The position numbers were made by a program, and so were the translations under genes. Positions 8,009 to 25,051 of a stretch of DNA of 64,000 nt are shown piece after piece (position 1 is the stretch's first letter; the number at the start of each line of letters is the position of its first letter). The notes beneath the pieces were generated by a model that was not told where the DNA came from, searched no databases, and saw nothing but the letters and a program-made list of their open reading frames with translations. The stretch is from Halorussus marinus (GTDB lineage Archaea; Halobacteriota; Halobacteria; Halobacteriales; Haladaptataceae): contig NZ_SBIV01000001.1 of assembly GCF_004765795.1 (NCBI RefSeq), positions 558,001 to 622,000 on the forward strand, given 5' to 3'.

Positions 8009-8983
8009 TTAATCGGTGCCGGGCGCCGGCGTCGGCTCCGCCGGGTCCTCGTCGACGTACTCCAGATCGTCGGTGTAGCGATCGATGAGCAACACCGCGA
8101 CCGCGCCCGCGACCCCGGCGAGGACGGTCGCGGCCACGCGCTCGACCGGCCACGCGCCCTCGGCGGTGAGGATGCGTGCGGCCGGAAGTCGGAGCGCGCC
8201 GACCATCAGCGCGACGAGGAAGGTCAGCGTCACCTGGCGGCGGGTCGCGAGCGCCCACTTCACGACGCGGGCGAACGTGAGGATTCCCACCGCCGCGCCA
8301 GCGACGAACGAGGCGACGGCGATCGCCGGCCCGAGCGCGGCCTCGAGCGCGCCGCCCCGAGCGATCGCGACGAGTTCGGCAATGAACTCGTGGAGCGCGT
8401 TGCTCATGTACACGTACTGGCCCATCAGGATGAGCAACAGCGACCCCGAGACGCCGGGCAGGATCATCGCGGAGATCGCGATCCCGCCCGCGACGAACAG
8501 CACCGGCGGCGCGTGGGGAACCGCGGCCCCCGCGGATTCGCCGGCCAGCAAGAACGCGCCGACCAGCCCCGCGATCGCGGCCGCCCGCTCGTCGCGGGTG
8601 TCGAGTCTGACCTCTCCCCAGAGGACGACCGCCGAGGCGGCGATGAGGCCGAAGAAGAACGCGAACAGCACGGCGGGCGAAGACTCCTCGACGCCGGCGA
8701 CGACGCCGGTGACGCCGACGATGGCGGTCAGGACCCCCGCGCCGAGCACCGCGAGGAAGGCGACGTCCATCGCCCGGACGGTCTCGGCGATCCGGGCGCG
8801 AGCCCGGGCGTCGTACGCGCGCGGGAGGTCGGCCAGCACCGCCGGATCGAACGCCGCGATCGCGCCGACCAGCCGCTCGTAGATTCCGGTTATCAGCGCG
8901 ATGGTGCCGCCCGAGACGCCGGGGACGGCGTCTGCGGCGCCCATGAACACGCCCTTCAGATAGACGGAGAGCCACGCTCGCAT
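8009..8983 (-). CDS. DUF368 family membrane protein, candidate polyprenyl-phosphate translocase
   Basis: A polytopic membrane protein of 324 aa. The family hallmark PGVSGGT is at residues 21-27, and a second, related PGVSGS motif occurs about halfway along, consistent with two homologous halves. In bacteria DUF368 proteins were recently implicated in moving undecaprenyl phosphate back across the membrane. Here the gene lies 58 nt downstream of aglB on the same strand, so the natural substrate would be dolichol phosphate released by AglB. That substrate is inference. A TATA-like element before its ATG suggests it can also be transcribed alone. Confidence 0.85.
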   Translation of the reverse strand: MRAWLSVYLKGVFMGAADAVPGVSGGTIALITGIYERLVGAIAAFDPAVLADLPRAYDARARARIAETVRAMDVAFLAVLGAGVLTAIVGVTGVVAGVEESSPAVLFAFFFGLIAASAVVLWGEVRLDTRDERAAAIAGLVGAFLLAGESAGAAVPHAPPVLFVAGGIAISAMILPGVSGSLLLILMGQYVYMSNALHEFIAELVAIARGGALEAALGPAIAVASFVAGAAVGILTFARVVKWALATRRQVTLTFLVALMVGALRLPAARILTAEGAWPVERVAATVLAGVAGAVAVLLIDRYTDDLEYVDEDPAEPTPAPGTD

Positions 8984-9007
8984 TGGGCCCGGATACGTCG
9001 ACCGCGG

Positions 9008-9016
9008 GGAAAACAG
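9008..9016 (-). promoter_or_regulatory. TATA-like box of the DUF368 gene
   Basis: CTGTTTTCC on the reverse strand, centred 29 nt before the ATG at 8983. It lies in the short gap after aglB, so the gene may have its own start site. Confidence 0.4.
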
Positions 9017-9041
9017 TTCGGCTTTCGACGGAACGAACCGC

Positions 9042-12000
9042 TCAGTCGCGCTTGCCGAAGAGGAGCGTCGCCGCGAACGCTCCGACGAGGCCGGCGCGGG
9101 CGGGCGCGGTCTCCTCGCGATCGGGGAGCGCGTCGGCCGGCGCGGGCCGGGATTCGGCGGCGGCCGCGCCCGGCGACGCGAGCGCGGAGGCGTTCGACTC
9201 GTTCGCGACCGTGTCGTTCTCGACGGTCTCGTTGGTCGCCGTCTCGTTCGTGACGGTTTCGTTCGTCACAGTTTCGTTCGTGGCGGTCTCGTTGGTTGCC
9301 GTCTCGTTTTGGTCCTGGCGGAGCTGGATCGACTCCTCGGTCAGCGCGACCTCGGTCGCCGAGTCGTTCTCGCCGATGACCTGCGCTTCGGTCACGTCGG
9401 CAGTGGCGTTCGAGAAGGTGATGTTGCCGTCCTCGAACGACTGGCCGGTCACGAACTCGTACGGACCGGTCGCCCGCACGCTCGTGTTGGTGTAGCCCTG
9501 CTCGGGGCCCCACTCGTCGTACCCGGTCGAGGAGTACGGCAGGGTCATCGTGAACTCGCCGTCAGCACCGGTCTGGGCCTGCTGGCGGTAGGTGAACGTC
9601 GAGTTGGCCTCGGTCGGCGACAGCTGGACTCGCGCGGTCACGGTGGCGTTCTCGGGGCCGGTGCCCTCGACGGTCGCGCCGGGGACGCGCTCGAACGTCT
9701 TGACCCACGACGGCGAGGTCCGGAGGATGCGGTTCGGGTTCACGCCGGCCTGCTGGAGCAGGCGCATCTCGCCGCGTAGCGTCTGGACGTACTGCTGGGA
9801 GCTGGTGGCCGAGGACTCGCTCTGTTTGACCAGCCGGTAGTGTTCGAGCGCGGAGACGCGCTCGCTCGGGAACGGCCCGATCCCGCCGATCTGGGCGGTG
9901 CCGTCCTCCTCGACGAACTCGCGGGCCTCCTGCATCGTGTCGAAGTTGCGAACGACCGTCGCGTTCTCGCCCGAGGGCGTACCGACGATCTGGTCGGAGG
10001 AGACCCCCGAGACCGCGTCGTAGTCGACGACCACCGGGCTGGGTTCGACCGCGCTACCCTGATAGAGGTAGAGTCGCGCGACCTGACTCTGATAGTAGCG
10101 CTGGTCTTTCATCCGGAAGGCGATCCGGGGCCGGGTCTGCTCGTCGTTCAGCCCGGAGTACACCCGCGTGTAGAAGTCGAACCGACTCACGTTCTCGTTG
10201 AACACGGTGGGTGCCGAGAACTTCGAGGTCGGCTCGGCCATCTTCCAGTCGGCCATCACGTAGCGGGTCTCCTCGCCGTCGTCGCCGAGCGTCTCGATGA
10301 CCTCGTTGGCCTCCTGTTCGCTGGGCGCGAGCAGGTAGTTCGCGGCGGTAGTCGCGCCCTCCTGGAACGGGTTGGCGTTCGGGATGCGCTCGCCCTGGAC
10401 GGTGATGATGTGGCCGTAGTCCCACCACGACATCACGCCGTACGCGCCGGCCGGGTAGTCGAAGTCACCGTCGTTCTGGTCGTAGGTGCCGTAGTAGTCC
10501 ATCTCGTTGTCGGCGCCGCCGAACGTCCCCTCCTCGGGCGTCTCGTTGGCGAGCCAGTCGAGCGAGCCGTCCCAGTCGGCGATCTCGCCGGGACCGGTGT
10601 TCGCGCCCGCCTGCATGGCGGTGTTGGTCTGGTCGATGTTGGCGACGCCCGTACTGCCGACGGTCGCCGGGAAGACGAGCACCGGCAACACCAGCAGGAC
10701 GACCATCACGACCGACAACACCTGGTAGCCGTCGACGTCGGTGAGCGACTCGCGGTCGGTGAAGTCCGCGATCGCGAGCACGCGACCGGCGAGGTAGGCG
10801 TTCAGCACGGCGACCGGCACCGCGAGGTAATAGTTGAACCTGACCTGCGTGAACGCCGCCGCGACGATGAACGCGGCCCAGACGAGCACGAGCAGTTTCT
10901 CGGCGCTGTGGTCGTCGGTGCGGTAGGTCCGCCACACCAGCCAGATCGCGGCCACGGCGGCCGTGAACAGCATCAGGCCGTACTCCTGCATGATGACGTC
11001 GAACTCGCTGATGCCGTACTGGGGCTGGACACCTCCGGGGCCTTCTGCGAGGAACGGCTGGGCCTCGCCGATAGTTCGGGTCCGGGCGTTCGTTCCCAGT
11101 CCGATCACGCGGAGGACGTTGTTCCGAACGAGGTTGAACAGGCCGGGCGCGCCGACCGCGACGGCGCCGACGACGGCGACGATGATCCCGCCGATCGCGG
11201 GCGGGTACAGCGTGGCGTTGAGGTCGCGGGCGTCCCACACTCGGGCGAGCCACGCCATGAAGACACAGCCGCCGGCGACCGCGAACGCGAGCAGCGGCTG
11301 GAGGGGCGAGAACTTCGTCGGACTGAAATCGAACGTGCCGAGCGGAACGAGCATCAGGAGCCCGGTGACGCTCATGCTGACCGCGCCGACGAACGCGAGG
11401 TGGTCGGGGCTGACCCCCCGGAGGTAGTCGGCCGCGAGCTTGAGCACGAAGAACGCGCCGAAGATACCGATCAGCAGGACGCCGGGCGGCCACGTCCAGA
11501 GGTAGAGCGCCGTCGCGATCCCCGCGAGTACGCTGTAGCCGAGTGGTCGGCGAAGCACCGCGAAATCACGGTCCGCAACGAGTTCGTACACCGGCTTCTC
11601 GCGCTCGGCGACGCTCAGCGCGACCATCATCGCCAGCACCGCGAACGCCTGAAACAGGGGTTCGGCGATGTTGTGATCCGAGAACCCGACCAGACTCCGC
11701 CGGAGGAACGTGCCCGGAAGGAGCGCGAGCACGACGACGCCGAACAGCGCACCGGGGCGGCCGGCGATGCGCTTGCCGAGCAGGTAGGTCGGAATCGCGA
11801 CGAGCGTCCCGAGCACCGCCGGAGCGACGAGGAGGGTCGTCGCCACCGTCTGCTCGGTGGGGCTACCGAGCCCCACGATCAGGGCGGCGGTCGCGACCAA
11901 CTGGTCGTAAAGCGTCCCGAACTGGCCGACGCTGGTGCCGAACGGGAAGTACGTCCAGGGGTCGAACGGCATCGTGCTCGGCCAGTTGGCAACCGTGTAG

Positions 12001-12209
12001 GTGACTTGTCGGAGGTGATACCACGCGTCCGCGCCGGTGAAAAAGACCTCGCCGTCGCGGAAGAAGTTCTCGTACGACTGGACACGCACCCAGAGCATGA
12101 AGGCGATCGCCGCGGCGAGCACGGGGACGTGATACCAGTCCTCGAACGCGTCGAGGATCGACTCGGCCGACTCGGCCGAGTCGTCGACCTGCTCAGTCTG
12201 CTGGCTCAT
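9042..12209 (-). CDS. aglB: Oligosaccharyltransferase AglB (STT3 family)
   Basis: Membrane enzyme (1055 aa) that transfers the dolichol-linked glycan to Asn in N-x-S/T sequons outside the cell. Seen: an N-terminal hydrophobic segment at about 28-42, the acidic motif GADAWYH at 59-65, the SDHNIAE loop, a TIGE motif near 378-381 that fits the archaeal TIXE signature, about a dozen membrane segments, and the catalytic WWDYG at about 595-599. The C-terminal domain is extracellular. Near 967-1007 the protein carries nine sequons in a row, followed by a short hydrophobic stretch and GKRD at the end. The ATG at 12209 was chosen; the longer frame to 12614 is Arg-rich shadow sequence. Confidence 0.97.
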   Translation of the reverse strand: MSQQTEQVDDSAESAESILDAFEDWYHVPVLAAAIAFMLWVRVQSYENFFRDGEVFFTGADAWYHLRQVTYTVANWPSTMPFDPWTYFPFGTSVGQFGTLYDQLVATAALIVGLGSPTEQTVATTLLVAPAVLGTLVAIPTYLLGKRIAGRPGALFGVVVLALLPGTFLRRSLVGFSDHNIAEPLFQAFAVLAMMVALSVAEREKPVYELVADRDFAVLRRPLGYSVLAGIATALYLWTWPPGVLLIGIFGAFFVLKLAADYLRGVSPDHLAFVGAVSMSVTGLLMLVPLGTFDFSPTKFSPLQPLLAFAVAGGCVFMAWLARVWDARDLNATLYPPAIGGIIVAVVGAVAVGAPGLFNLVRNNVLRVIGLGTNARTRTIGEAQPFLAEGPGGVQPQYGISEFDVIMQEYGLMLFTAAVAAIWLVWRTYRTDDHSAEKLLVLVWAAFIVAAAFTQVRFNYYLAVPVAVLNAYLAGRVLAIADFTDRESLTDVDGYQVLSVVMVVLLVLPVLVFPATVGSTGVANIDQTNTAMQAGANTGPGEIADWDGSLDWLANETPEEGTFGGADNEMDYYGTYDQNDGDFDYPAGAYGVMSWWDYGHIITVQGERIPNANPFQEGATTAANYLLAPSEQEANEVIETLGDDGEETRYVMADWKMAEPTSKFSAPTVFNENVSRFDFYTRVYSGLNDEQTRPRIAFRMKDQRYYQSQVARLYLYQGSAVEPSPVVVDYDAVSGVSSDQIVGTPSGENATVVRNFDTMQEAREFVEEDGTAQIGGIGPFPSERVSALEHYRLVKQSESSATSSQQYVQTLRGEMRLLQQAGVNPNRILRTSPSWVKTFERVPGATVEGTGPENATVTARVQLSPTEANSTFTYRQQAQTGADGEFTMTLPYSSTGYDEWGPEQGYTNTSVRATGPYEFVTGQSFEDGNITFSNATADVTEAQVIGENDSATEVALTEESIQLRQDQNETATNETATNETVTNETVTNETATNETVENDTVANESNASALASPGAAAAESRPAPADALPDREETAPARAGLVGAFAATLLFGKRD
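9190..9306 (-). repeat. Imperfect tandem repeat encoding N-E-T sequons in aglB
   Basis: The coding strand repeats a short unit that translates mainly as (A/V)-T-N-E-T. It gives six NET, one NDT, one NES and one NAS sequon over about 40 residues. Third-position differences between units show this is not a very recent duplication. Confidence 0.8.
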
Positions 12210-12301: not shown

Positions 12302-13768
12302 TCACGAAAGCAGTTGACCCCTGAGGTCTCGAAGCACCGCGACCGCGTCGATCCGGATGCGTTCGCTCAGCCCGAGCAGGACGCCGAAGTATGTCAGCCC
12401 GCCGACCGCGAGCAACGCCGCGATCCGGACCGCTCCGGCCGCCCCGCCGAGCTGAAGCTTCAGCGCGTAGACGACGGCGGTCATGACCGCCATCGACGCC
12501 ACCTGATGGCCCACGTCGGTGTAGGTCGACGCCGGAACGGACTCGTCGAGGAAGACGAGCATGGTGGCGACGCTCGCGCCGAACGCGAGGACGGTCGCCC
12601 ACGCGACGCCCCACGCGCCGAACCAGATCGTGAGCGGGACCGCAGAGACGCCGTACACCCCGATGAGGAGCACGCCACTCGCGGCGTAGAGCCGGGGGCG
12701 CCCGGTCCCGAGGAAGAACTTCTCTAAGCCCTCTCGGTACCCGTTGATCAGGTTCGCGACCGCGAGCACCGGGACGAGCGCGTTCGCCAGTCCGACGGCC
12801 CCGAGCACGGGAAGCGTCGCAGTGCCGGCGCTCTCGCCGTAGATGGTCAACAGGAGCGCGTTCCCGATGACCGCGCCCCCGCCGACGATCGGAACCGCGA
12901 ACAGCCCGGCATAGGTGAACACCGCCGACAGGAGTCGACCCACCTCCTCGTCGTCGCCCGCCTCGTTCAGCGCCGAGAATTGCGGGAAGGCGACCTGCGC
13001 AAGCGCAGACGAGAACAGCATCGACGCCTCCGTGAGGGTGAAGACGTTCTTGTACACGCCGGTGGCGGCCGGACCGACGAACTGCTGGATCAGCAGGTAG
13101 TCGGCCTGCTTGAACAGTTGACTGGAGACGCTCCGGACGTAGGCGTACTTCGAGAAGCCGACGAACGACCGGAACAGCGCTACCGAGGGCCGGGCCGGAA
13201 CCACCCGTGCGAACCCGACGTAGGATACCAGAAAGGTGAGAAACTGTCCCGCGATGAGCCCCCAGACGAGTCCCCTGACGCCGTGGCCCTCGACGACCAG
13301 CGCGGCCTGGATCGGGACGATGAGAGCGTACCGGCCGTTCTCTATCGCGCCGACGAGCGCGACGCGTTGTTTGCCTTCGAGAAACGACCCGGAGAGCCGG
13401 AACAGTCCCCAGGTGAGCACGCCGAGCGGGACGAGCAGCGCGACGTCCACCCCCAGCAGGCCGTTGATCGTTCCCCGGAACGCGACCGACAGCGCCGCGA
13501 CCGCCGCCACGCCCGCGAGCAACACGAGCGCGCCGCTGGCGAACTCCCTCGCTTCGGTGTCACCGCCGCTGACCCGCTTGACCAAGACCGGGTAGAGTCC
13601 GAAGCTGAAGACGTTGGCCGCGATCATCTGGAGGCTGAAGTACGCCGCGTAGGTCCCGATGCCGCCGAACCCGAGTTCGCGCGTGAAAAAGACAGTGCCG
13701 AGAAAGCCGGCCACCGTCCCGAGGACGTTCGTGACGAACCGCTTCGAGACCTCCGCGCCGATCTTCAT
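12302..13768 (-). CDS. Polysaccharide/oligosaccharide flippase (MOP superfamily)
   Basis: A 488-aa membrane protein with about 12-14 hydrophobic segments beginning at residue 12 (RFVTNVLGTVAGFLGTVFFT), the pattern of Wzx/RfbX-type and AglR-like flippases. The likely job is moving dolichol-linked oligosaccharide to the outer face for AglB, encoded just downstream on the same strand. Its ATG overlaps the stop codon of the upstream AP-superfamily gene by 4 nt, so those two are coupled. Family membership is clear. The lipid-linked glycan as substrate is inferred from the aglB neighbourhood. Confidence 0.88.
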   Translation of the reverse strand: MKIGAEVSKRFVTNVLGTVAGFLGTVFFTRELGFGGIGTYAAYFSLQMIAANVFSFGLYPVLVKRVSGGDTEAREFASGALVLLAGVAAVAALSVAFRGTINGLLGVDVALLVPLGVLTWGLFRLSGSFLEGKQRVALVGAIENGRYALIVPIQAALVVEGHGVRGLVWGLIAGQFLTFLVSYVGFARVVPARPSVALFRSFVGFSKYAYVRSVSSQLFKQADYLLIQQFVGPAATGVYKNVFTLTEASMLFSSALAQVAFPQFSALNEAGDDEEVGRLLSAVFTYAGLFAVPIVGGGAVIGNALLLTIYGESAGTATLPVLGAVGLANALVPVLAVANLINGYREGLEKFFLGTGRPRLYAASGVLLIGVYGVSAVPLTIWFGAWGVAWATVLAFGASVATMLVFLDESVPASTYTDVGHQVASMAVMTAVVYALKLQLGGAAGAVRIAALLAVGGLTYFGVLLGLSERIRIDAVAVLRDLRGQLLS

Positions 13769-15324
13769 TCCAGATACCCGAGCTCTCGGAGTCGGTCTTT
13801 GACCTCGCCTTCTTTCTCCTCGTCGCCGGCGACGCCGTCGCCCGTCACGGCCGCGTCGCCGACGAAGTCGTAGCTTTCGGGGTCGCGGGTCGCGAGGTCG
13901 CTCCCCGACGCGAACACGTCGAGTACGTCGCCGGCCATCGATTCGGGGAGACGGTAGCCGAGCGCGTGGAGCACTGTCGGCGCGATGTCGGTGATGCGCG
14001 CGCCCTCGATCGTCCCGTCGCGGAACGACGGCCCCCGGGCGAGGAAGATCCCCTCGCGGGCGTGTCCGGAGGTGTCGACCTCGAAGCGGAGGTCGTCGAC
14101 GTCGAACCGCGAAGACGCGTGGACTTCGGGCGTCTCGATGACCATCGCGAGATCCGGGGTGTGGGGGCCGCCGCGGTCGAGGCGGTCGAACCGGACCGAG
14201 AGGCCCTCGCTTTCGGCCCCGTCCCGGAGCGCGGACTCGGCGCGCTCGCAGATCGCGTCGATCTCGTCCGGATCGTCCGCGAGCGCGTAGATTAGCGTCG
14301 TCTTCTGTCCGACGTCGGCTAACGCGGTCGTCTCCGCCCAGTCGATTCGACCCGTGCTCAACGCGTTGTCGAGGCCGAGCGCGTCGCCGGTCGGGACGCC
14401 GGTCAGTGCGCTCTCGGGGACCAGCTTACGGGCGAGCGTGAGCAGGCCGGCCTTCCCGAGCAGGTCGCTGGCGGCGTCTCGGGCGGTCCCCATCGCCGCC
14501 TTGGTCGCGTCGCCGGACTCGGTCAGCGAGACGAGCCCCGCTCGTTCGAGCACCACGTTGGGCGCGAACTTCGAGCGGACCTTCTCGAAGCCGTGGTCGC
14601 TCATCACGATGAGGTCCTTGTCGGCGTGGGCGTCGAGAAACTCCCCGAGGCGCTCGTCGACCCGCCGATAGACCTCGAAGAGTTCGTTGTCCGAGGCGGC
14701 CGGCGGCGTGCTTTCGGCGCCCCAGTAGTGGTGGGCCACCCGATCGGTCGCTCGGATCAGCCCGACCGCGAGCTCCGGGTCCTCGCGGTCGATGAAGTGT
14801 TCGAACGCCTCGAACCGCTTGTCGACCAGGTCGAGGCTCTCGTCGACGTACTCGCGAGACCCCGGCGGCTGGTCGTTCCGGAGCTTGTAGCCGTCGACGA
14901 GGTCGACGAGTTCGTCCCACCGCGCTGGCGGGTGGGCGTACTCGTCTTTGTACTCGGGGGCGGCCGCAATGATGGTGCCGTCGATCGCCTGCCAGGGGTA
15001 CGACCCCGGGATGTTGAACACGACGACCGACCCGTCCTGATCGTCGACGGCGTCCCACATCTTACCGGGGACGAACTCGTCGTGGCTCAGGTCGTTTTCG
15101 CGGGTCTCCCGGTTGAAGTGGGTGAACCCGTACATGTCGAGGTCGGTCGGCTCCCGACCGGTCGCGAACGCCGGCCACGCCGGGACGGTGATCTCGGGGA
15201 CCGTGCTCTCTAACTCCCCGCTGACGCTCTCGTCGAGCAGACGCTCGAAGTTCGGGAGGCGGCCGGACTCCACCCACGGCTCGATGACCGAGAGGGTCGC
15301 GCCGTCGAGTCCGAGGACTATCAT
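13765..15324 (-). CDS. Alkaline phosphatase superfamily enzyme 1 (NPP-like)
   Basis: A 519-aa cytoplasmic enzyme of the type I phosphodiesterase/nucleotide pyrophosphatase branch. The full metal site can be traced: Asp in VLGLDGATL (residue 6), nucleophile Thr in PEITVPAW (about residue 49), Asp and His in TDRVAHHYW, Asp-His in MSDHGFE, and a final His in SGHAREGIF. It has no signal peptide, because the first beta strand begins at residue 2. It ends in RELGYLE, like five neighbours. The ATG at 15324 was preferred to the frame start at 15351. It is coupled to the flippase by ATGA. The substrate is unknown; a phosphate diester or monoester on a glycan precursor is my inference. Confidence 0.85.
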   Translation of the reverse strand: MIVLGLDGATLSVIEPWVESGRLPNFERLLDESVSGELESTVPEITVPAWPAFATGREPTDLDMYGFTHFNRETRENDLSHDEFVPGKMWDAVDDQDGSVVVFNIPGSYPWQAIDGTIIAAAPEYKDEYAHPPARWDELVDLVDGYKLRNDQPPGSREYVDESLDLVDKRFEAFEHFIDREDPELAVGLIRATDRVAHHYWGAESTPPAASDNELFEVYRRVDERLGEFLDAHADKDLIVMSDHGFEKVRSKFAPNVVLERAGLVSLTESGDATKAAMGTARDAASDLLGKAGLLTLARKLVPESALTGVPTGDALGLDNALSTGRIDWAETTALADVGQKTTLIYALADDPDEIDAICERAESALRDGAESEGLSVRFDRLDRGGPHTPDLAMVIETPEVHASSRFDVDDLRFEVDTSGHAREGIFLARGPSFRDGTIEGARITDIAPTVLHALGYRLPESMAGDVLDVFASGSDLATRDPESYDFVGDAAVTGDGVAGDEEKEGEVKDRLRELGYLE

Positions 15325-15346
15325 GTGGGGGCGAACGCGGGGCCCG

Positions 15347-15356
15347 GCCAAAAGGA
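15347..15356 (-). promoter_or_regulatory. TATA-like box of AP-superfamily gene 1
   Basis: TCCTTTTGGC on the reverse strand, centred 27 nt before the ATG at 15324. It argues for that start and a leaderless transcript. Confidence 0.45.
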
Positions 15357-15364
15357 GTTTGGTC

Positions 15365-16969
15365 CTACTCCAGATACCCCAGATCGGAGAGGCGCTCGGC
15401 GACGTCGGCGTCCTCGGTGGCTGCCTGCGTGGCCGCTTCGTAGTCGGGGTAGGATCGCTCGTCGGGGGCGTCGACGGCGGCGAGCGGGTCCCCGTCCATC
15501 ACCGTGGCCGGCGCGACGTCGAGAGTCGCCAGCACCGTCGACGCGACGTCGAACAGGTGTGCGCCCGAGAGGTCCGCTCCGGAGTCGACGCCCTCGCCCG
15601 CCAGCGCGATCACGCCGTGTCGCTTGTGGTTCCACGGCTCGGGCTCGCCGAACTGCTCGCCGACGAGCGCCGAGAGGCCGTGCTGGAAGTCGGTCGGCAC
15701 CGCCAGCACGTCGACCGCTTCTTGGGCGTACGGGCCGTCGATGTACTTCTCCCGGGGCACGACTTCCTCGAACACCGGCGTCCCCGTCGGCGTGGTCGCG
15801 CTCGACAGGAGCGAGATCACCTCCTCGCGGACCCGATCGTACTCGTCTCGCGCCACGACGCCGTCGGGGTCTCGCCCCTCGACGTTCAGCCTGACGCCCA
15901 GTTCCGACGGCGACCGGAGGTACGCTCGCGACGCCGAGAAGTCGACCGCGTCGCTCGCGGCGAACACCGCTCCGACCGGGACGTGGCGACCGACGAACTC
16001 CGCGAGCCCGAGCCGTTCGAGCACCGCTTTCCCGCGCTGGTAGGTCAGCCCGACGGTCGCCGCCGTCGCCGCGAGCCGTTCGAGCACGGGATGGCCCGAC
16101 GCCCCCTGCTCGGCGCCCCCCGTCAAGCGCTCGTCTTTGATCTGGAACCACGAGGGGACGCCCTGACCGCCGGTGGTGGTCTCGACCACGCCCGCTTCCC
16201 GGAGGAACTCGTTGACGCGGAACTCGTAGCCGTCGTACTCGCCCATGCCATGGTCGCTGGCGACCACGACGGTGTCGGGGTCGCACTCGTCGAGGATCGC
16301 GCCGATCTGCTCGTCGACGGCCCGGTAGATGCGCCGGACCTTCCCGTGGTCGCCGGGGTAATCGTGGAACACCGCGTCGGTCTTCTGGAACTGGACGAAG
16401 CCGAACTCGGGACCGAACCGGTCGGCGAGATACCGGAACGCGGCCCCGCGCATCCGAGCGAGTTCGAGGTAGTCCTCGAACCGGTCGTCGCCAGCCGTCT
16501 CGTCGGTCTCGCGGCGGGCGTACACGCGGTAGTCGCCGACCGCCTCGCGCACGTCGTCCAGAATCCCGTCGGGGTGACAGTCCGGATCCTCGGCGGCGAG
16601 GTAGCCCGGGACGACCGCGCCGTCGACGTCGGGCGGCGGGCTCGTGACGGGGGCGTTGACGACCACGCTCGTCAGGCCCGCCGCGTCGGCGTACTCCCAG
16701 AGCGTTCGCTGTCGAACGTCGGTCGCGTTCACGATGTCCCAGTCGTAGCCGTCGAACCGCAGGAAGTCGAACACGCCGTGCTTGCCGGGGTTCGTTCCGG
16801 TGTACAGCGACGGCCACGCGCTCGCGGTCCACGGCGGAATCTGAGACTCCAGTCGCCCGGTCGCCCCGTCGTCGAACAGCGATTCGAGGTGCGGGAGGGC
16901 ACCGTCCTCGAACAGCGGTCGGAGTACGGGGAAGCAGGCGGCGTCGAGTCCGACCAGCAACGTCTGCAT
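15365..16969 (-). CDS. Alkaline phosphatase superfamily enzyme 2 (NPP-like)
   Basis: A 534-aa paralog of the previous gene, same branch. Metal and catalytic residues: Asp in LLVGLDAA (residue 9), Thr in PPWTASAWPS, Asp and His in KTDAVFHDY, Asp-His in ASDHGMGEYDG and a late His in KRHGVIAL. No signal peptide is present, so it acts in the cytoplasm. It ends in SDLGYLE. It has its own TATA-like box. The middle insertion, about residues 240-420, is longer than in enzyme 1 and may shape substrate choice. The specific reaction cannot be read from the sequence. Confidence 0.84.
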   Translation of the reverse strand: MQTLLVGLDAACFPVLRPLFEDGALPHLESLFDDGATGRLESQIPPWTASAWPSLYTGTNPGKHGVFDFLRFDGYDWDIVNATDVRQRTLWEYADAAGLTSVVVNAPVTSPPPDVDGAVVPGYLAAEDPDCHPDGILDDVREAVGDYRVYARRETDETAGDDRFEDYLELARMRGAAFRYLADRFGPEFGFVQFQKTDAVFHDYPGDHGKVRRIYRAVDEQIGAILDECDPDTVVVASDHGMGEYDGYEFRVNEFLREAGVVETTTGGQGVPSWFQIKDERLTGGAEQGASGHPVLERLAATAATVGLTYQRGKAVLERLGLAEFVGRHVPVGAVFAASDAVDFSASRAYLRSPSELGVRLNVEGRDPDGVVARDEYDRVREEVISLLSSATTPTGTPVFEEVVPREKYIDGPYAQEAVDVLAVPTDFQHGLSALVGEQFGEPEPWNHKRHGVIALAGEGVDSGADLSGAHLFDVASTVLATLDVAPATVMDGDPLAAVDAPDERSYPDYEAATQAATEDADVAERLSDLGYLE

Positions 16970-16992
16970 GTCTCGACCGACCGGACCCGCCG

Positions 16993-17001
16993 GCTTAAAA
17001 C
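16993..17001 (-). promoter_or_regulatory. TATA-like box of AP-superfamily gene 2
   Basis: GTTTTAAGC on the reverse strand, centred 28 nt before the ATG at 16969; leaderless spacing. Confidence 0.55.
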
Positions 17002-17016
17002 TGCTTTTCTCCGGCG

Positions 17017-18501
17017 CTACTCGATATACCCCAGCTCCCTGAGGTTGCGCTCGACGCCAGGACTGTAGTCGGCGTCGCTCTCGCTACCTGCTTTCTCGAA
17101 GCGCTCGCCGAGCGCTTCGGTGACTCGCGCCCGAAGGTCGGCGACGACCGACTCGTCGGGCTCGGCGACGACTGACTCGCCGGGCAGGTCGTAGAGGATC
17201 TCGGTGCCGTCCGACCGGAGTTCGAATCTGTACTCGTCGGTTCGGACCGACTTGCGACCGAGTTCGAACGCCCGGAGCGTCTCGGCCGAAACCTCGTCCA
17301 CGGCCTCGGTATCGGACAGATCCGAGGGCGCTTCGGCCGCGTAGACGGCGTCCCGAGCGTCGCCGCCGAACAGCGAGTCGCCCGCCGTCTCAGGAGCGTC
17401 CAGCCCGCAGAGCTCACAGAGCGTCGCGAACAGGTCGACGTGCGAGGCGAGCTTGTCGCGGGGATCGGCCTCCGGAACGCCGGGACCGGCGAACACGAGC
17501 GGGACGCGTGTCACCTCGTCGTAGAGGAAGTTGCCGTGGTACAGCGCACCGTGCTCGCCGAACAGTTCGCCGTGATCGGACGTGAGGACGACGACAGTGT
17601 CATCGGCGAGTCCCGCGCGTTCGAACCACTCCAGAAACGCGCCGAGACGGTCGTCGAGATACCGGAGGCTCGCGGCATACCACTCCCGAAGCACGTCGAG
17701 TTCGGCCTCCGTCAGCGACGAGGAATCGTCTCGATACCGCAACGCGATGCTCTGGGCGCCCGCCCCGTCGGCCGCGGCGAACAGTCTGTCGTCGTCGACC
17801 GCTGGGTCGTCGTACTGGCACGGCGAGTCGATCAACTCCTCGACTAGCCCGAACCGGGGCCGGGAAAGCGCTGGCGTCTGGTCGTGCTTGTACGGCCGCG
17901 GCGGGTCGTAGGGCGCGTGGACCGTCGTCAGGTTCGCCATGGCGAAGAACGGCTCTGGGGTGTCGGCGAGCCACTCCCGAAGCTTCTCGAACTTGATCTC
18001 GGTGTAGTAGTCGTTCCCCTGTGAGGCCAGCCTGAAGAAGTCTCGGCGGATCAGCGGATCGGTCACGAGCTGATAGAGATACGCGACCGACGGTCGCTCG
18101 GCCACTTCCTCGTAGACCTCGTAGTAGGCTTCGAACCCGCGGTCGAGCCCGGTCGCCGATCCCATCTTTGCGGGCCCCGGAATGCCGAAGGTTCGATACC
18201 CGCGGTCCGCGAACCACTCCGCCAACAGCGGAACCGACTCAGGCATCGTCGGCCACGCGCCGTCGAATCCGGTCTGGTTGGGATACTGCCCGGAGAAAAG
18301 CGCTCCGTGCGACGGCGGCGTCCACGGCCCGACTGCGAAAGCGTTCTCGAAGCTCGTCCCTCGCTCGGCCACGCCGTCGATGGTCGGCGTTTCGACCGGA
18401 AACGCGCCGTCGTCACAGGAGAGCGCATCGGCCCGGAGCGTGTCGAAAACTAGCAGGAGGACGTTCGGATACTCGGTTCTCGGAACTCTCACTGGCGCCA
18501 T
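17017..18501 (-). CDS. Alkaline phosphatase superfamily enzyme 3 (sulfatase-like fold, Thr nucleophile)
   Basis: A 494-aa protein of the sulfatase-like branch. Seen: LLLVFDTLRAD near the N-terminus, PWTPPSHGALFSGQYP at the nucleophile site, TSDHGELFGEHG and HGNFLYDEVTRVPLVF near the end. A formylglycine sulfatase would have C/S-x-P-x-R; here Cys is Thr and the Arg is His. A phosphohydrolase or phosphotransferase of the EptA/LtaS/OpgB type is therefore more likely than a sulfatase. It has no signal peptide and ends in RELGYIE. The ATG at 18501 is preferred over a TTG at 18537. It is divergent from the GT4 gene at 18579. Confidence 0.83.
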   Translation of the reverse strand: MAPVRVPRTEYPNVLLLVFDTLRADALSCDDGAFPVETPTIDGVAERGTSFENAFAVGPWTPPSHGALFSGQYPNQTGFDGAWPTMPESVPLLAEWFADRGYRTFGIPGPAKMGSATGLDRGFEAYYEVYEEVAERPSVAYLYQLVTDPLIRRDFFRLASQGNDYYTEIKFEKLREWLADTPEPFFAMANLTTVHAPYDPPRPYKHDQTPALSRPRFGLVEELIDSPCQYDDPAVDDDRLFAAADGAGAQSIALRYRDDSSSLTEAELDVLREWYAASLRYLDDRLGAFLEWFERAGLADDTVVVLTSDHGELFGEHGALYHGNFLYDEVTRVPLVFAGPGVPEADPRDKLASHVDLFATLCELCGLDAPETAGDSLFGGDARDAVYAAEAPSDLSDTEAVDEVSAETLRAFELGRKSVRTDEYRFELRSDGTEILYDLPGESVVAEPDESVVADLRARVTEALGERFEKAGSESDADYSPGVERNLRELGYIE

Positions 18502-18545
18502 CTCTCGACCCCCATGAACTACCGAGGAGGGGATCAACGAACGGG

Positions 18546-18554
18546 AACTTTAAC
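18546..18554 (+). promoter_or_regulatory. TATA-like box of the GT4 gene at 18579
   Basis: AACTTTAAC, centred 29 nt before the ATG at 18579. The same nonamer recurs before the gene at 19638. Confidence 0.6.
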
Positions 18555-18578
18555 CGTTCGGCCCGCCGCGTCCCGAAC

Positions 18579-19613
18579 ATGGACCCCGACGCCGCCCGCG
18601 TGGCGATGCTCCACCAGGACCCCCATCCCGCCCACCGCGGCTTCGCGGAGGCGATCGGCGCGGACCTCGTCGACTACCACCGGCGGTCGGCCGGCCCCCT
18701 CGACGGTACCCTCGCCGAGGACGCGCTGAACGGACTCACGTACCCCGATTACGACGTCTACATCGTGGAGGGGTCGCGACCCCTGTACGCCGGACTACTC
18801 TGCCGGTTCGCCCGCGGCGGCAAACTGGTCTATCTCTGTGCGGACCACGGGCTCTACCGGCTCGGTAGCGCCGACTTCGAGGGCGACTCGGCGCTCAAGT
18901 CGCTGATCGGGACGTTCGGTACGCCGGCGGTCCGGGCGGCCGGACGGCGCGGGATCGACGGCGTGATCGCGGTCTCGGCGTTCGCCGCGGAGTTCACCCG
19001 GCCCGTGGTCGGCCCGAAGACCCCGATCGAGGTCGCCCATCCGTTCGTCCAGCCGTCGACCTACGACGCGCTCGGTGACGTCGAACCGAGCCTCGGCTCG
19101 GAGGTCGCCGTGACCGTCGCGCGGCCTTGGGAGTACAAGGGCGTCGACCTGCTCGTCGACGCGTGGCCCCGGGTCCGCGAGTCGTTCCCCGACGCGGAAC
19201 TCCACGTCGTCGGCGGGGGACACCCGGAGTCGTACGCCGAGACTCCGGGCGTCCGGGTTCGGGGGTACGTCGAGGACCTCGCCGACGCGTTCGCGCCCGG
19301 TTCGCTGTTCGTCCAGCCGTCGCGGATGGACACCTTCCCGGTGAGCACGCTCGAAGCGATGCGTGCCGGCCTCCCGCCGCTGGTGACACGGACGACCGGC
19401 ACGCGATCGGAGGCCCGACGGATCGACGAGTCGCTCGTGGTCGAACCGAACGAGGACGCGCTCGCTCGCGGCGTCCGCAGGTACTTCGAACGCGACCTCG
19501 CCGACCGACGCTCGCTCTCGGAGACCGCCCGCGACCGGGGCGGCCGGTTCGATCGGGACTCGCGAACCGCCGCGTTCCGGGCGGCCTACCGCGACGTTCT
19601 CGAAGAACTTTAA
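18579..19613 (+). CDS. GT4-like glycosyltransferase
   Basis: A 344-aa GT-B-fold glycosyltransferase, short for family GT4 because the N-terminal acceptor domain is compact (about residues 1-155). The donor domain shows VTVARPWEYKGVDLLVDAW, a central Gly-rich strand (LHVVGGGHPE), and the C-terminal motif FVQPSRMDTFPVSTLEAMRAG, in which the usual E-x7-E pattern is only partly kept (the first Glu is replaced by Met-Asp). No membrane segment is seen, so it is cytosolic or membrane-associated. It probably adds a sugar to the dolichol-linked glycan made in this island; donor sugar and acceptor cannot be read. The start was chosen by the TATA spacing and the lack of similarity further upstream. Confidence 0.8.
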   Translation: MDPDAARVAMLHQDPHPAHRGFAEAIGADLVDYHRRSAGPLDGTLAEDALNGLTYPDYDVYIVEGSRPLYAGLLCRFARGGKLVYLCADHGLYRLGSADFEGDSALKSLIGTFGTPAVRAAGRRGIDGVIAVSAFAAEFTRPVVGPKTPIEVAHPFVQPSTYDALGDVEPSLGSEVAVTVARPWEYKGVDLLVDAWPRVRESFPDAELHVVGGGHPESYAETPGVRVRGYVEDLADAFAPGSLFVQPSRMDTFPVSTLEAMRAGLPPLVTRTTGTRSEARRIDESLVVEPNEDALARGVRRYFERDLADRRSLSETARDRGGRFDRDSRTAAFRAAYRDVLEEL

Positions 19614-19614
19614 C
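19606..19614 (+). promoter_or_regulatory. TATA-like box of AP-superfamily gene 4, inside the previous stop codon
   Basis: AACTTTAAC spans the TAA stop of the glycosyltransferase gene and is centred 28 nt before the ATG at 19638. It is identical to the box that drives that glycosyltransferase. Confidence 0.55.
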
Positions 19615-19637
19615 GCCGGACCGGCGATTGTCCGCCC

Positions 19638-21203
19638 ATGACCGTCTACGTCGTCGGACTCGACGGGGCCGACTGGTCGCTGCTCCGACCGTGGGCCGAG
19701 GCGGGCCACCTCCCGACGGTCGCCCGGATTCTCGACGAGGGCGTCGCGGGCGACCTCCAGAGCACGCTCCCGCCGGTCACGTTCCCGGCGTGGAAGTGTT
19801 ACTCGACGGGCAAGACTCCCGGGAAGCTCGGCGTCTACGAGTGGTTCGCGTACGACAGAACGACCCACGACATCTCGGCGAACGACGCCAGCGACTTCCG
19901 GTCGCGCGAGTACTGGGACGTGTTGGCCGACCGCGACCGGCGCGCGGGCGTGATCAACATGCCGACGACCCACCCTGCCGGCGCGGACGAGGGCGTGAAC
20001 GCGACGGACGACGGGCCCTTCATCATCGCGGGGAGCCCCGCAAGCGAGCGCAAGGCGTTCACCAGCCCCGCGTCGCTGAGGACGGAACTGCTCGAGGAGA
20101 TCCCCGACTACCGGGTCAAGCCCGACCTCGTCCTCGACGAGGCGTCGCCCGACGAGTTGGTCGCCGAGGCCCGCGATCTGTTCGAACAGCGCTTCGACGC
20201 CGCGACGTGGCTCGCCGACGAGAAAGACTGCGAGCTGGTCCACACCACGCTCTTTGCGACCGACACGCTCCAACACCGGCTCTGGGATCGCCCCGAGAAG
20301 CTCCGGGCGGCCTACGAGCGCGTCGACGACCTGCTCGCGGACCTGCTCGCACGCGAGGACGCCGAGGCCGTCGTGCTCATGAGCGACCACGGCTTCGCCG
20401 AGATCGACGAGATCTTTCTCGTGAATCAGTGGTTGGCCGAGCGGGGCGACCTCGTCGTCGAGGACTCGGAGGCCCGCGACCTGCTGGCGTCGGTCGGGCT
20501 CACCGAAGAACGGCTCAAGCGGTTGGTCGATCGGCTCGGACTCGTCAATCTCGCCCAGTCGCTCGTGCCCGAGTCCCTCCAGCGGTTCTTCCCGAGCGAG
20601 AGCGGTCGCGTGGCGATTCAGGACGCCGGAATCGACTGGACCGAGACGAAGGCCGTCTCGCTCGGCCGCGGACCGATCTACGTCAACCGCGACGCGTTCC
20701 CGGACGAGGAGGCGGCCGACGCCTACGCCGAGGCGCTGGCGGCCGACCTCGAAGCGCTCGAAACGCCGTCGGGCGATCCGGTCGCGGCCGCGGTCCGCGA
20801 TCCGGCGGACGTTTACACCGGCGAGCGACCGCGCGCTCCGGATCTGGTGGTGGAGTACGCGACCGGCGTCGACGCCCCCGAAGCGATCGGCGGCGGTGTC
20901 TTCGGCGAGACCACCGAGTGGCTGGCGACCCACCGCCGCACGGGGGTGTTTGCGGCGTGGGGCGAGGACGTCGCGACCGGGAGCGCCGACCTCGAACTGT
21001 ACGACCTCGCGCCGACTCTGCTCCACTATCTCGGTGCGCCCGTCCCCGAAGACGTCGACGGCGACGTTCGATTCGACGTGTTAGCCGGCGAGCCAGCCGA
21101 TCGATCGATCGAGACGGGGGCGCCGACAGCGGCCGACGCGGCCGGCGAGCGCGCGGGCGAGGAGGTCGAAGACACACTACGAGAGCTTGGGTATCTGGAA
21201 TGA
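19638..21203 (+). CDS. Alkaline phosphatase superfamily enzyme 4 (NPP-like)
   Basis: A 521-aa cytoplasmic enzyme close to enzymes 1 and 2. Seen: VVGLDGADWSLLRPW at the N-terminus, Thr nucleophile in PPVTFPAWKCYSTG, ATDTLQHRLW, MSDHGFAEID, and THRRTGVFAAWG carrying the last His. The metal site is therefore complete. It ends in RELGYLE and overlaps the next gene by ATGA, pairing one NPP-like with one sulfatase-like enzyme in an operon. It is not exported. The reaction is unknown; the location beside glycosyltransferases suggests a glycan precursor as substrate. Confidence 0.85.
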   Translation: MTVYVVGLDGADWSLLRPWAEAGHLPTVARILDEGVAGDLQSTLPPVTFPAWKCYSTGKTPGKLGVYEWFAYDRTTHDISANDASDFRSREYWDVLADRDRRAGVINMPTTHPAGADEGVNATDDGPFIIAGSPASERKAFTSPASLRTELLEEIPDYRVKPDLVLDEASPDELVAEARDLFEQRFDAATWLADEKDCELVHTTLFATDTLQHRLWDRPEKLRAAYERVDDLLADLLAREDAEAVVLMSDHGFAEIDEIFLVNQWLAERGDLVVEDSEARDLLASVGLTEERLKRLVDRLGLVNLAQSLVPESLQRFFPSESGRVAIQDAGIDWTETKAVSLGRGPIYVNRDAFPDEEAADAYAEALAADLEALETPSGDPVAAAVRDPADVYTGERPRAPDLVVEYATGVDAPEAIGGGVFGETTEWLATHRRTGVFAAWGEDVATGSADLELYDLAPTLLHYLGAPVPEDVDGDVRFDVLAGEPADRSIETGAPTAADAAGERAGEEVEDTLRELGYLE

Positions 21204-22552
21204 ATCCCCTGAAGCGGTTTCCCCGCGCGAACAACGCGTGGATGGACCTGAAACACCGCGTGCGCCACTGGCGAAAGCGACGCGACCGGGCCGTTCGGAC
21301 GGGCGTTTCGGTGGATGAGCCTCGTAACGTCCTCGTGGTCGTCGTCGACTGCCTGCGCGCAGACCACGTCTCGGGATTCGGCCACGACCGCGAGACGACG
21401 CCCACGCTCGATGCGTTTGCGGATGGCGCCGCCGCGTTCTCGAACGCGAAAGCGCCGAGCCCGTGGACGTTTCCCTCGGTTCCGTCGGTCCTGTCGGGAC
21501 GCTATCCTCACGAGCACGGGGGCCGACTCGAACCCGACCCGCGGAACCTCTCGGCCGAACAGTTTCCCCGTAGGCCGCGGACTGACGTCCCGATGCTCCC
21601 CGACCTGCTCGAAAGCGCCGGGTACGACACCGGGATGATAACCGCGATTCCCATGGCGGAGGAGGCGGTCGGCGACCGGTTTCAGCATGTGAGCGTCCGC
21701 TATACGGACGCGACCGAGCGAGTGTCGTCTGCTCGCGAGTGGTTCGCCGGGCGTGACAGGTGGTTCTGCCACCTCCACCTCGGCGACCCTCACGCGCCAC
21801 TCGACGTCCCGGACGAACACCGAGCGGAGTTCGGCGTACCGGACCTCGAGAATGTCGAGGACTGGCGATTCCGCGAATCGACCGGCGACGAGGGGTTCGA
21901 GCGGTACCGTGACGCCCGACGCCGAGCGTACGATGCGGCTGTTAGGGGGGCGGACGACGCGCTCGCGGGCCTACTCGCGGACCTCGACGACGACACCGTC
22001 GTCGTGGTGTGTGGCGATCACGGCGAGGCGTTCTGGGAGCACCCCGACCTCGAACGGCGGCTCAACGACGATCCCCGCGGCTACTACGGGACCGACCACG
22101 GCCACAGCGTCTTCGAGGAAGTCGCCCGAGTACCCCTCTGGGTACGCGCGCCCGGCGTCCATCCGGAGCGCTCGGATCGACCGGTCTCGCTCGTGGACGT
22201 GGCGCCGACGGTGCTCTCGACGCTCGGGGCGGACGTACCGGCCGGTATCAGCGGTCGATCGCTCGATACCGACCCCGACCGGGACCGACCGCTCCTCTGT
22301 GAGGAGACCGCCTACGGCTACAATCAACGCGCGGTCTGGCGAGACGGCCAGAAAGTGATCGCGGTGCCCGAAACGGCGACGAGACTGGCGTTCGATCTCG
22401 ACGGCGGCCTCGAAACAGACCCGCTCGAAACGGTCCCAGACCGTCTCGAATCAGGACTCTCCGGGTTCGGATCGGGCGTCGACGGCGGCCAGCAGATGTC
22501 TGTCGACGACGACACCCGCGACCGACTCGCGGAACTCGGCTACCTCGAATAG
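21200..22552 (+). CDS. Alkaline phosphatase superfamily enzyme 5 (sulfatase-like fold, Thr nucleophile)
   Basis: A 450-aa protein starting at the ATG that overlaps the previous stop (ATGA). About 45 basic and aromatic residues precede the first strand NVLVVVVDCLRADHVSG, a possible membrane-surface or partner contact. The nucleophile site reads SPWTFPSVPSVLSGRYP: Thr, with no CxPxR signature. Late metal ligands are in GDHGEAFWEHP and GTDHGHSVFEEVARVPLW. It ends in AELGYLE. Its stop codon abuts the stop of the convergent gene 6. A phosphatase or phosphotransferase role is inferred from the residues. Confidence 0.82.
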   Translation: MNPLKRFPRANNAWMDLKHRVRHWRKRRDRAVRTGVSVDEPRNVLVVVVDCLRADHVSGFGHDRETTPTLDAFADGAAAFSNAKAPSPWTFPSVPSVLSGRYPHEHGGRLEPDPRNLSAEQFPRRPRTDVPMLPDLLESAGYDTGMITAIPMAEEAVGDRFQHVSVRYTDATERVSSAREWFAGRDRWFCHLHLGDPHAPLDVPDEHRAEFGVPDLENVEDWRFRESTGDEGFERYRDARRRAYDAAVRGADDALAGLLADLDDDTVVVVCGDHGEAFWEHPDLERRLNDDPRGYYGTDHGHSVFEEVARVPLWVRAPGVHPERSDRPVSLVDVAPTVLSTLGADVPAGISGRSLDTDPDRDRPLLCEETAYGYNQRAVWRDGQKVIAVPETATRLAFDLDGGLETDPLETVPDRLESGLSGFGSGVDGGQQMSVDDDTRDRLAELGYLE

Positions 22553-23932
22553 CTACTCCATGTAGCCGAGGTCTTTGAGGTGCTGTTCGACCATCTCGTC
22601 GTCCTCGGCGACGGCGTCGGAGCCGCCCTCGCGCAACCGCTTCATCCGCGCCTGATGGTCGTCGAGCGCGCGCGCGAGGTCGCCGTACTCGGGGGCGTCG
22701 CCAGACCGGTCGTCCTCCGGGCGCTCCTCGGGGGTCGCGCTCACGTCGAAGCAGAGTTCGCCGTCGTCGGCGTGGCGAAGGAGCTTCCAGCCGTCGGCTC
22801 GCCGGGCGCAACACCGCGCGTACTCGATCTGGCGACCGACGTCGGCGAACCCGTACTCGCGGGGGTCGGCCTCGCCGTCGGCGACCGCGAGCGCGGACTC
22901 GCCCTCCCAGCCGGCGTGGGGATCGAGACCGAGCGCGTCCGCGATCGTCGGCGCGACGTCGAGGAGTCTGACCTGCCCCTCGACCGGCTCGGCGCGCTCG
23001 ACGTCGTTTCGCGCCGGGTGAGAGACGATCAGCGGGACCCGGAGGACGCCTTCCCAGAACTCCGGCGGGTGGCCCGCGTGACCGTGCTCGCCGACGAGTT
23101 CGCCGTGATCGGCCGTGAAGACGACGAGCGTCTCGTCGAGCTCGTTACGTTCGCGCAGGGCGTCCAGTAAGGCGTCGAACTGGTCGTCGACGTAGGCGCA
23201 CTCGGCGTCGTAGAGTTTCCGGATCAGCTCCCACTCGCGGTCGGTGACTGCCTCGGGATGGTGGGTCCCCTTCCGCGAGAGCCCGCGACAGGTCGCGAGG
23301 TCGAGCGGTTCGTCCAGAAACTGACGCTGGTACTCCTCGGGCGCCTCGTAGGGGTGGTGGGCGTCCATGTAGTGGAGCCAGGTGAACCACTCGCCCGTCT
23401 GGTCGCCGATCCACTCGATGGCGCGGTCGTTGAGCGATTCGGCGCGCTCGTACTCGCTGTCGTTGCCCGTCGCGGTCGCGAACAGCGCGTCGGCGCGGTT
23501 GTACACCGTCTCTATCGTCTTGAACACCGCGCCGTCCTTGTCGAGGTTCGACTGGACGAACTGCTTGAGCCGCCCCGCCTCGGTCGTGCCGCTGGCGTCG
23601 TACATCGACTCGAACCCCCGGTCGTAGCGGTACGAACCGCTCGCGAAGTGATTGTCGGTGTAGCCCGCGGTGGCGTACCCGGCGTCCCGGAGCGACTCGG
23701 CCAGCGTCCTGATGCCGTCGTCCGAGCCCGGTTCCGGGAGGCCCAGTCCCTCGATGCTGGCGAAGTATCGGCTCGCGAGGATGGCCGGGAACGACGCCGG
23801 CGTCGAGGGGCCGTTCGCGACGCACTCGGCGAACTCCAGCGCCTCGTCCGCGAACGACCGCGTCGCGGGCATCACATCCGGACTCACCCGGTCGGCGCGC
23901 AGGGAGTCGACCGTGACGAGGAGGACGTTCAT
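22553..23932 (-). CDS. Alkaline phosphatase superfamily enzyme 6 (sulfatase-like fold, Thr nucleophile)
   Basis: A 459-aa cytoplasmic enzyme. Seen: NVLLVTVDSLRADRVSPD at the N-terminus, GPSTPASFPAILASRYF at the nucleophile position (Thr in place of Cys, Phe in place of the sulfatase Arg), WLHYMDAHHPYEAPEEY, FTADHGELVGEHGHAGHPPE and VLRVPLIVSHPA. It ends in KDLGYME, the most divergent version of the shared tag. It has a clear TATA-like box and a short palindrome before its ATG. The substrate is unknown. Confidence 0.83.
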   Translation of the reverse strand: MNVLLVTVDSLRADRVSPDVMPATRSFADEALEFAECVANGPSTPASFPAILASRYFASIEGLGLPEPGSDDGIRTLAESLRDAGYATAGYTDNHFASGSYRYDRGFESMYDASGTTEAGRLKQFVQSNLDKDGAVFKTIETVYNRADALFATATGNDSEYERAESLNDRAIEWIGDQTGEWFTWLHYMDAHHPYEAPEEYQRQFLDEPLDLATCRGLSRKGTHHPEAVTDREWELIRKLYDAECAYVDDQFDALLDALRERNELDETLVVFTADHGELVGEHGHAGHPPEFWEGVLRVPLIVSHPARNDVERAEPVEGQVRLLDVAPTIADALGLDPHAGWEGESALAVADGEADPREYGFADVGRQIEYARCCARRADGWKLLRHADDGELCFDVSATPEERPEDDRSGDAPEYGDLARALDDHQARMKRLREGGSDAVAEDDEMVEQHLKDLGYME

Positions 23933-24010: not shown

Positions 24011-25051
24011 CTACGATTGGTAGACCGCGGCCACGCGCTCGCTCACGTCGTCCCACGACGGCAGTACGGCGGTGGGGGCGTCGCGCTCGGCGGCCTCACG
24101 AACGGCTTCGGAGACGGCCGTAGAGTCGACGTCCGCGACGCCGACGCAGTCATCGCGGTCGGTCCAGTCGACCAGCGCTCCGGCCTCCCGGACGACGCAC
24201 GGCGTCCCGGCCGCCAGCGCCTCGGCGACCGTCATGCCGTACGACTCGAACGACGAGAGCGCGAGGTAGGTCTCGGCGCCGGCGTACAGACCGGGCAGGC
24301 GCTCGTCGGCGACGTAACCCAGAAACGTCACGCGGTCGGCGACGCCGGCCTCTCGGGCGATCGCTTCGAGTTCCGGGCGGTAGTCGCCCGACCCGGCGAC
24401 CAGCAGGTCGTACTCCGGGAGGTCGGCGAGCGCCCGAATCGCGTGCTGGACGCCCTTGTACGCCTCCAGCCGGCCGACACAGAGCAAGTATGGGCGGTCG
24501 CGGCGTTCGGGCGATGCGTCGGCGAACCGCGCGACGTCGAGGCCGTTCGGGATCACGGTCGCCTCGGCTCCGAAGTCCGCGCGGAGCCGGCCGCGTTCCC
24601 AGTCGCTGACGGCGATCACGGCGTCGGCTCGGCCGAGCGCCCACCCGCCGACCGGTCGGTACAGCGAGAGCAGTCGGTCCCGAAGGTCGCCGGCGCTCGC
24701 GCCGTGATAGTGGGTCGTCACGACGAACCGTGCGTCGCCGGCGCCGAGCGCCGCGAACAGCACCGGTAGCGAGTGATAGTTGTGCGCGTGGATCACGTCG
24801 GGATCGACCCGCCGGACCGCGCGGGCGATCCCCGGCGCGACGTGGAAGGCGCCGCCGGGCGCGAACCCCCGGAAGCGCCGGACCGACACGCCGTTTCGCG
24901 TCTCCCGATCCGGAACGTCGGCGCCGGCGTCGGCGGCGAACACGGTCACGTCGTGGCCCCGAGCCGCGAGCCGCTCGCTGATCTCGGCGACGTGAGTCTC
25001 GACGCCGCCGGTGTGGGGCGGGTATCGCGGCGCGACCTGCAGGATCTCCAT
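24011..25051 (-). CDS. GT4 family glycosyltransferase
   Basis: A 346-aa GT-B glycosyltransferase. Seen: the N-terminal APRYPPHTGGVETHVAEI pattern typical of GT4 enzymes, VIHAHNYHSLP, the donor-binding VGRLEAYKGVQHAIRAL, and LALSSFESYGMTVAEALAAG near residue 270 with the E-x7-E pair. It starts 1 nt after the stop of the GT2 gene, so the two are cotranscribed. It probably extends the dolichol-linked N-glycan whose first sugar is added by AglJ. Sugar specificity cannot be read. Confidence 0.88.
   Translation of the reverse strand: MEILQVAPRYPPHTGGVETHVAEISERLAARGHDVTVFAADAGADVPDRETRNGVSVRRFRGFAPGGAFHVAPGIARAVRRVDPDVIHAHNYHSLPVLFAALGAGDARFVVTTHYHGASAGDLRDRLLSLYRPVGGWALGRADAVIAVSDWERGRLRADFGAEATVIPNGLDVARFADASPERRDRPYLLCVGRLEAYKGVQHAIRALADLPEYDLLVAGSGDYRPELEAIAREAGVADRVTFLGYVADERLPGLYAGAETYLALSSFESYGMTVAEALAAGTPCVVREAGALVDWTDRDDCVGVADVDSTAVSEAVREAAERDAPTAVLPSWDDVSERVAAVYQS

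Follow-up and report, generated by a model that had tools for sequence, protein, structure and literature searches.

DUF368 proteins encoded behind aglB in haloarchaea are candidates for the dolichol-phosphate return step of N-glycosylation

In the order Halobacteriales, the gene for a DUF368 membrane protein is generally found directly behind aglB, the gene for the archaeal oligosaccharyltransferase. The pair was encountered in a Halorussus marinus window (the whole stretch of DNA analysed, 64,000 nucleotides, G+C content 69.6%). The DUF368 protein is probably a polyprenyl-phosphate translocase that works in the return arm of the AglB-dependent N-glycosylation cycle. Specifically, we infer that it acts on dolichol phosphate as its natural substrate, with net transport inward, and that most of the lipid to be returned comes from AglB. 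Linked DUF368 proteins are the best candidates for this step in archaea. The family and its activity are already known; the linkage to aglB is apparently unreported, with priority uncertain, as no paper treating DUF368 together with AglB was found in the searchable open literature. If the assignment is correct, bacterial carrier-recycling families extend to dolichol, the carrier common to archaea and eukaryotes.

The aglB-DUF368 pair and its locus in Halorussus marinus

The pair is part of a wider agl locus with the following features, given in window positions:

8009-8983, minus strand: DUF368/PF04018 polyprenyl-phosphate translocase-family protein, 324 amino acids (PF04018, 205.8 bits against a cut-off of 26, profile positions 1-226 of 246)
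8984-9041, no strand: 58-nucleotide gap from the aglB stop to the DUF368 start (direct sequence reading)
9042-12209, minus strand: aglB, archaeal oligosaccharyltransferase, 1055 amino acids, ATG at 12209 (TIGR04154, 949.6 bits against a cut-off of 450; PF02516, PF22627, PF18079)
12302-13768, minus strand: MOP-superfamily polysaccharide flippase (PF13440, 59.2 bits; PF01943, 40 bits)
24011-25051, minus strand: GT4 glycosyltransferase (PF13439, PF00534)
25053-26195, minus strand: GT2 glycosyltransferase (PF00535)
26345-27250, plus strand: aglJ, loading of the first sugar onto dolichol phosphate (TIGR04182, 468.9 bits, cut-off 325)

The first of these is a DUF368 gene and the only copy in the genome. 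Its 58-nucleotide distance from aglB on the same strand, already given in a preliminary description of the window, is exact on direct reading of the sequence. The oligosaccharyltransferase contains the AglB core and L1 domains and the catalytic WWDYG motif, and both its score and this WWDxG-type motif identify it as AglB. Directly upstream of aglB and on the same strand lies the MOP-type flippase gene, a candidate for the outward flippase of the lipid-linked glycan; a flippase homologue also precedes aglB in three other loci (L100, L101 and L103). The locus further carries several other glycosyltransferase genes as well as sulfatase/phosphodiesterase-like genes. Taken together, the genes for loading, export, transfer and candidate return span about 20 kb of the window, and the earlier picture of an N-glycan cycle contained within one locus holds, aglJ being part of the same locus.

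Six alkaline-phosphatase-superfamily genes are located inside the agl locus at 13765-23932, three of them phosphodiesterase-like (PF01663) and three sulfatase-like (PF00884). Five of the six encoded proteins share a C-terminal tail reading ...LGYLE or ...LGYIE, and the group may be involved in the modification of sulfated or phosphorylated glycans. At 752-1879, a 375-residue membrane-protein-like frame beside a glycerol-kinase-like gene gave no match in a Pfam search.

Conservation of the gene pair in Halobacteriales

Conservation was analysed in 145 whole Halobacteriales genomes evenly drawn from the order, 144 of which encode DUF368 and 144 an AglB L1 domain. Linkage was scored when the two genes share a strand, with DUF368 behind aglB and the domains less than 3 kb apart. 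Of the 139 genomes where both genes could be placed, 107 have DUF368 directly after aglB in the same orientation, with a median domain spacing of 321 bases. The sample comprised 11 families, 9 of which include linked genomes; examples are found in Haladaptatus, Halorhabdus, Haloglomus, Halostagnicola, Halolamina and Halorubrum. Order and strand being kept at this frequency, adjacency by chance is ruled out. At least one more linked case is hidden by an assembly break: the aglB stop of genome G035 lies 127 bases from a contig end and its DUF368 gene starts about 215 bases into another contig. An additional sample from a single family (f2) yielded 39 linked genomes out of 47, the unlinked ones being confined to few genera.

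The two genes are closely packed. The DUF368 signature motif lies less than 200 nucleotides from the aglB stop in 52 of 54 linked haloarchaeal loci, a set that counts one genome twice, and at 13 of these 54 loci the distance is 44 nucleotides, with the DUF368 start overlapping the aglB stop. Stop and start overlap by 1-4 nucleotides or abut in many families and the pair is therefore probably translationally coupled. When loci are compared two by two, the gene next to the pair is homologous in 14% of cases on the upstream side and in 2.5% on the downstream side; as the loci compared had been chosen as linked, these values gauge the instability of the flanks, while the rate at which the pair itself breaks is gauged by the 107/139 figure. 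Since the flanking genes are not conserved, the pair has outlasted repeated reshuffling of its surroundings, and DUF368 is kept beside agl genes in Halobacteriales as a member of the AglB gene cluster would be.

Unlinked copies and aglM neighbours

All haloarchaeal DUF368 copies form one clade in a tree of 94 DUF368 proteins. Within it, 14 unlinked copies (L043, L045, L047, L049, L053, L055, L060, L061, L063, L065, L067, L069, L070 and L071) constitute a supported subclade (bootstrap 100, SH-aLRT 96) that is carried by some members of two families, with scattered occurrences elsewhere. Many of the genomes without linkage have a copy of this type. In four genomes (G130, G092, G042 and G142) such a copy coexists with a linked one, and in several genera it is the only copy. 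This distribution suggests replacement by a paralogue, not random drift of the linked copy. The neighbourhoods of the unlinked clade contain no agl gene and nothing that recurs across families.

A different situation was found in Halobellus rufus and one further genus (g23), where DUF368 is separated from aglB and adjoins aglM, the gene for the UDP-glucose dehydrogenase of N-glycosylation (NF041297, 746 and 729 bits, cut-off 670). Haloferax volcanii appears to be similar. Its aglB is HVO_RS12050 (PMC7749143, PMC5131992) and its DUF368 gene HVO_RS12060 (PMC9876793), which places DUF368 two locus tags after aglB, judging from the tag numbers. The encoded protein is a haloarchaeal family member like that of Halorussus marinus, but its gene is set one tag apart from aglB. 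Based on tag order and on the published agl cluster, which extends from aglJ to aglM (PMC5867893), the intervening tag is probably aglM, in which case the published cluster boundary falls just short of DUF368.

Many Halobacteriales also encode a second, shorter frame of about 800-850 residues with a weaker AglB L1 match, located away from DUF368 (for example G051:C1:2261449 and G014:C1:947807), which is possibly a second oligosaccharyltransferase.

Signature loops, internal repeat and predicted fold of DUF368

The DUF368 protein carries two signature loops:

8903-8944, minus strand: first signature loop MGAADAVPGVSGGT, residues 14-27, mostly invariant residues
8444-8467, minus strand: second signature loop MILPGVSG, residues 173-180, an internal repeat of the first

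Most residues of the first loop are invariant in 34 archaeal sequences and likewise in 19 of 19 bacterial members. The PG[VI]SG motifs, at residues 21-25 and 176-180, are both retained throughout the same two sets (34/34 and 19/19). Two further residues, R37 and D73, never vary among the archaeal sequences, whereas only 9 of the 19 bacterial members have them. When the N- and C-terminal halves were compared by hhalign, they matched with 97.7% probability (E 2e-12) and a score of 74.8 versus at most 22.9 in 30 column-shuffled controls; by this comparison the halves are related and form a two-fold repeat. An AlphaFold2 model built from the 34-sequence alignment (mean pLDDT 91.2) is all-helical, each half containing a broken helix that bears its PG[VI]SG loop, and the modelled architecture is typical for a two-fold pseudo-symmetric transporter. 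Score, paired loops and the predicted two-half multi-helix membrane fold all agree with membership in PF04018. A search for solved structures related by sequence found none, and the best Foldseek match of the model reached only E 0.28. A likeness to the BbZIP fold (VIA-align Z 9.3, 134 residues) is within the range common for helical proteins and was dropped.

The bacterial relatives are known as the PopT/VCA0040 family (DUF368, PF04018, COG2035), the name PopT reportedly going back to Roney and Rudner in 2022, and Pfam already calls PF04018 'undecaprenyl phosphate translocase-like'. The Halorussus marinus protein shares with them the Pfam family and both PG[VI]SG loops, and differs in that its gene is tied to aglB and that haloarchaea, unlike those bacteria, are not known to have murein. 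The VCA0040-type NCBIfam model NF052564 matches residues 4-265 (E 2.5e-53), however, the score of 181.4 bits is below the cut-off of 400 set for this V. cholerae-type equivalog and the protein is not filed as such. The undecaprenyl phosphate of V. cholerae and S. aureus is brought back to the inner leaflet by members of this family (PMC9876793; review PMC12826051), and the link between bacterial DUF368 and undecaprenyl-phosphate translocation on which the preliminary description drew is thus published (PMC9876793). In the same work, the H. volcanii DUF368 protein, the only archaeal member assayed so far, at least partly complemented a V. cholerae vca0040 mutant, and dolichol phosphate was named in 2022 as a possible substrate class of the family (PMC9876793). 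With these two points in print, the return step is less unassigned in archaea than had been claimed, although the searchable open literature assigns it to no archaeal protein. Nor was an assay of an archaeal DUF368 protein with dolichol phosphate found there, or any report on what the protein does in H. volcanii itself.

Proposed role in dolichol-phosphate return and alternative explanations

The N-glycan carrier of H. volcanii is C55-C60 dolichol monophosphate (PMC3871713, PMC5131992). Use of both mono- and diphosphate carriers has been reported for Halobacterium salinarum. It had been proposed that AglB leaves either dolichol phosphate or diphosphate behind; considering the H. volcanii carrier, the first product can be retained and the second is less likely here. 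With a monophosphate carrier, transfer by AglB should leave dolichol phosphate, the direct counterpart of the known DUF368-family substrate, making a phosphatase step unnecessary. The phosphatase BacA/UppP (PF02673) has a patchy distribution in haloarchaea despite their lack of murein, being encoded in 63 of 97 genomes (in Halorussus marinus at G000:C4:245562-246344) and mostly absent in family f10, in which aglB-DUF368 linkage is complete although most genomes are without BacA. BacA is thereby ruled out as a required linkage partner, and its absence from fully linked genomes is consistent with no phosphatase step being needed.

In the proposed cycle, AglJ and other transferases would assemble the glycan intracellularly, with dolichol phosphate as its carrier, the MOP-type flippase (12302-13768) would carry the glycan-charged lipid outward, and AglB would hand the glycan to protein, leaving dolichol phosphate on the outer leaflet. 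DUF368 would then return the lipid to the inner leaflet for reloading. As a further proposal, the linked haloarchaeal proteins could be dedicated dolichol-phosphate return translocases that are co-translated and possibly form a physical unit with AglB, completing the N-glycan lipid cycle; we regard this as evenly balanced between true and false. Given the aglB-DUF368 unit and an H. volcanii homologue only two tags from aglB, the question is open to simple deletion in a model archaeon.

DUF368 could also be a translocase of polyprenyl phosphate that serves surface glycans of every kind, exopolysaccharide included, and is co-expressed with aglB only because no other enzyme releases as much free carrier as AglB. 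This is a tenable though less probable account, favoured by the presence of just one DUF368 copy in Halorussus marinus although haloarchaea make other glycoconjugates, by the unlinked copies of other genera that have no recurrent agl neighbours, and by bacterial members, which work for peptidoglycan (PMC9876793). However, the partner kept through genomic scrambling is aglB, or aglM once the two are separated, both of which are N-glycosylation genes.

The undecaprenyl-phosphate translocases UptA/DedA (PF09335) have the same proposed task as DUF368 and belong to a different protein family. None of the haloarchaea in the phylum sample lacks DedA proteins; the Halorussus marinus genome has three matches, the best of which is on contig C4, outside the agl locus. 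Two matches were found in G008, the sole sampled haloarchaeon without DUF368, and V. cholerae needs its DUF368 protein only at alkaline pH (PMC9876793). The DedA distribution and the pH dependence would fit a scheme in which DedA proteins are the main haloarchaeal dolichol-phosphate translocases, with DUF368 stepping in only at high salt or in an alkaline medium, but the gene fixed beside aglB is DUF368, not DedA, and all but one of the 145 genomes encode DUF368, making this scheme unlikely. DedA paralogues may nevertheless share, or serve as a back-up for, dolichol-phosphate return.

Two membrane proteins of the same pathway, AglR and Agl15 of H. volcanii, have been proposed to move dolichol-linked sugars and differ from DUF368 in that they are thought to act outward on the charged carrier (PMC3871713). 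Their counterpart in the window is likely the MOP-type gene, separate from DUF368. Outward flipping of glycan-charged dolichol phosphate by DUF368 itself could be considered since its gene adjoins aglB, whose substrate must be delivered outward, and since the H. volcanii assignment is only tentative (PMC3871713); it is very improbable, however, as the bacterial family acts on uncharged monophosphate lipid and a MOP-type flippase, the class of known glycan flippases, is encoded directly upstream of aglB. Least credible is an inherited neighbourhood without a common pathway, for although all directly linked loci are of common ancestry within one order, the pair stayed unbroken through many reshufflings that left its outer neighbours largely non-homologous, the coding ends of the two genes overlap, and aglM or aglB neighbours of DUF368 recur elsewhere.

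DUF368 outside haloarchaea

The wider archaeal comparison covered other Halobacteriota, Methanobacteriota and Thermoplasmatota. The expectation that aglB-DUF368 linkage would extend across archaea was borne out strongly in Halobacteriales and weakly, with two genes in between, in one Thermoplasmatota lineage, but not elsewhere: aglB was near DUF368 in none of 28 loci of other Halobacteriota and in none of 20 Methanobacteriota loci. The pairing is therefore not general across archaea. DUF368 itself is encoded in 105 of 120 Methanobacteriota genomes, and the pseudomurein of this phylum represents another possible use for it.

In the Thermoplasmatota lineage (L142, L195, L196 and L198-L200), aglB precedes DUF368 in the same orientation, and AMMECR1 and amidohydrolase (dihydroorotase-like) genes lie between the two where the intervening stretch was read. 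Downstream, the run continues with inositol-monophosphatase-like, PcrB/geranylgeranylglyceryl-phosphate (GGGP) synthase-family and UbiX-type flavoprotein genes. This arrangement is a separate, looser association of DUF368 with genes for N-glycosylation and isoprenoid lipids.

Many methanogens that share the phylum of the haloarchaea (L077, L080, L083, L087-L090 and L093-L096) have DUF368 near a nucleotide-sugar epimerase-like gene. The same loci contain an archaeal phosphoglycerate mutase-like gene near DUF368, which was recognised by eye only.
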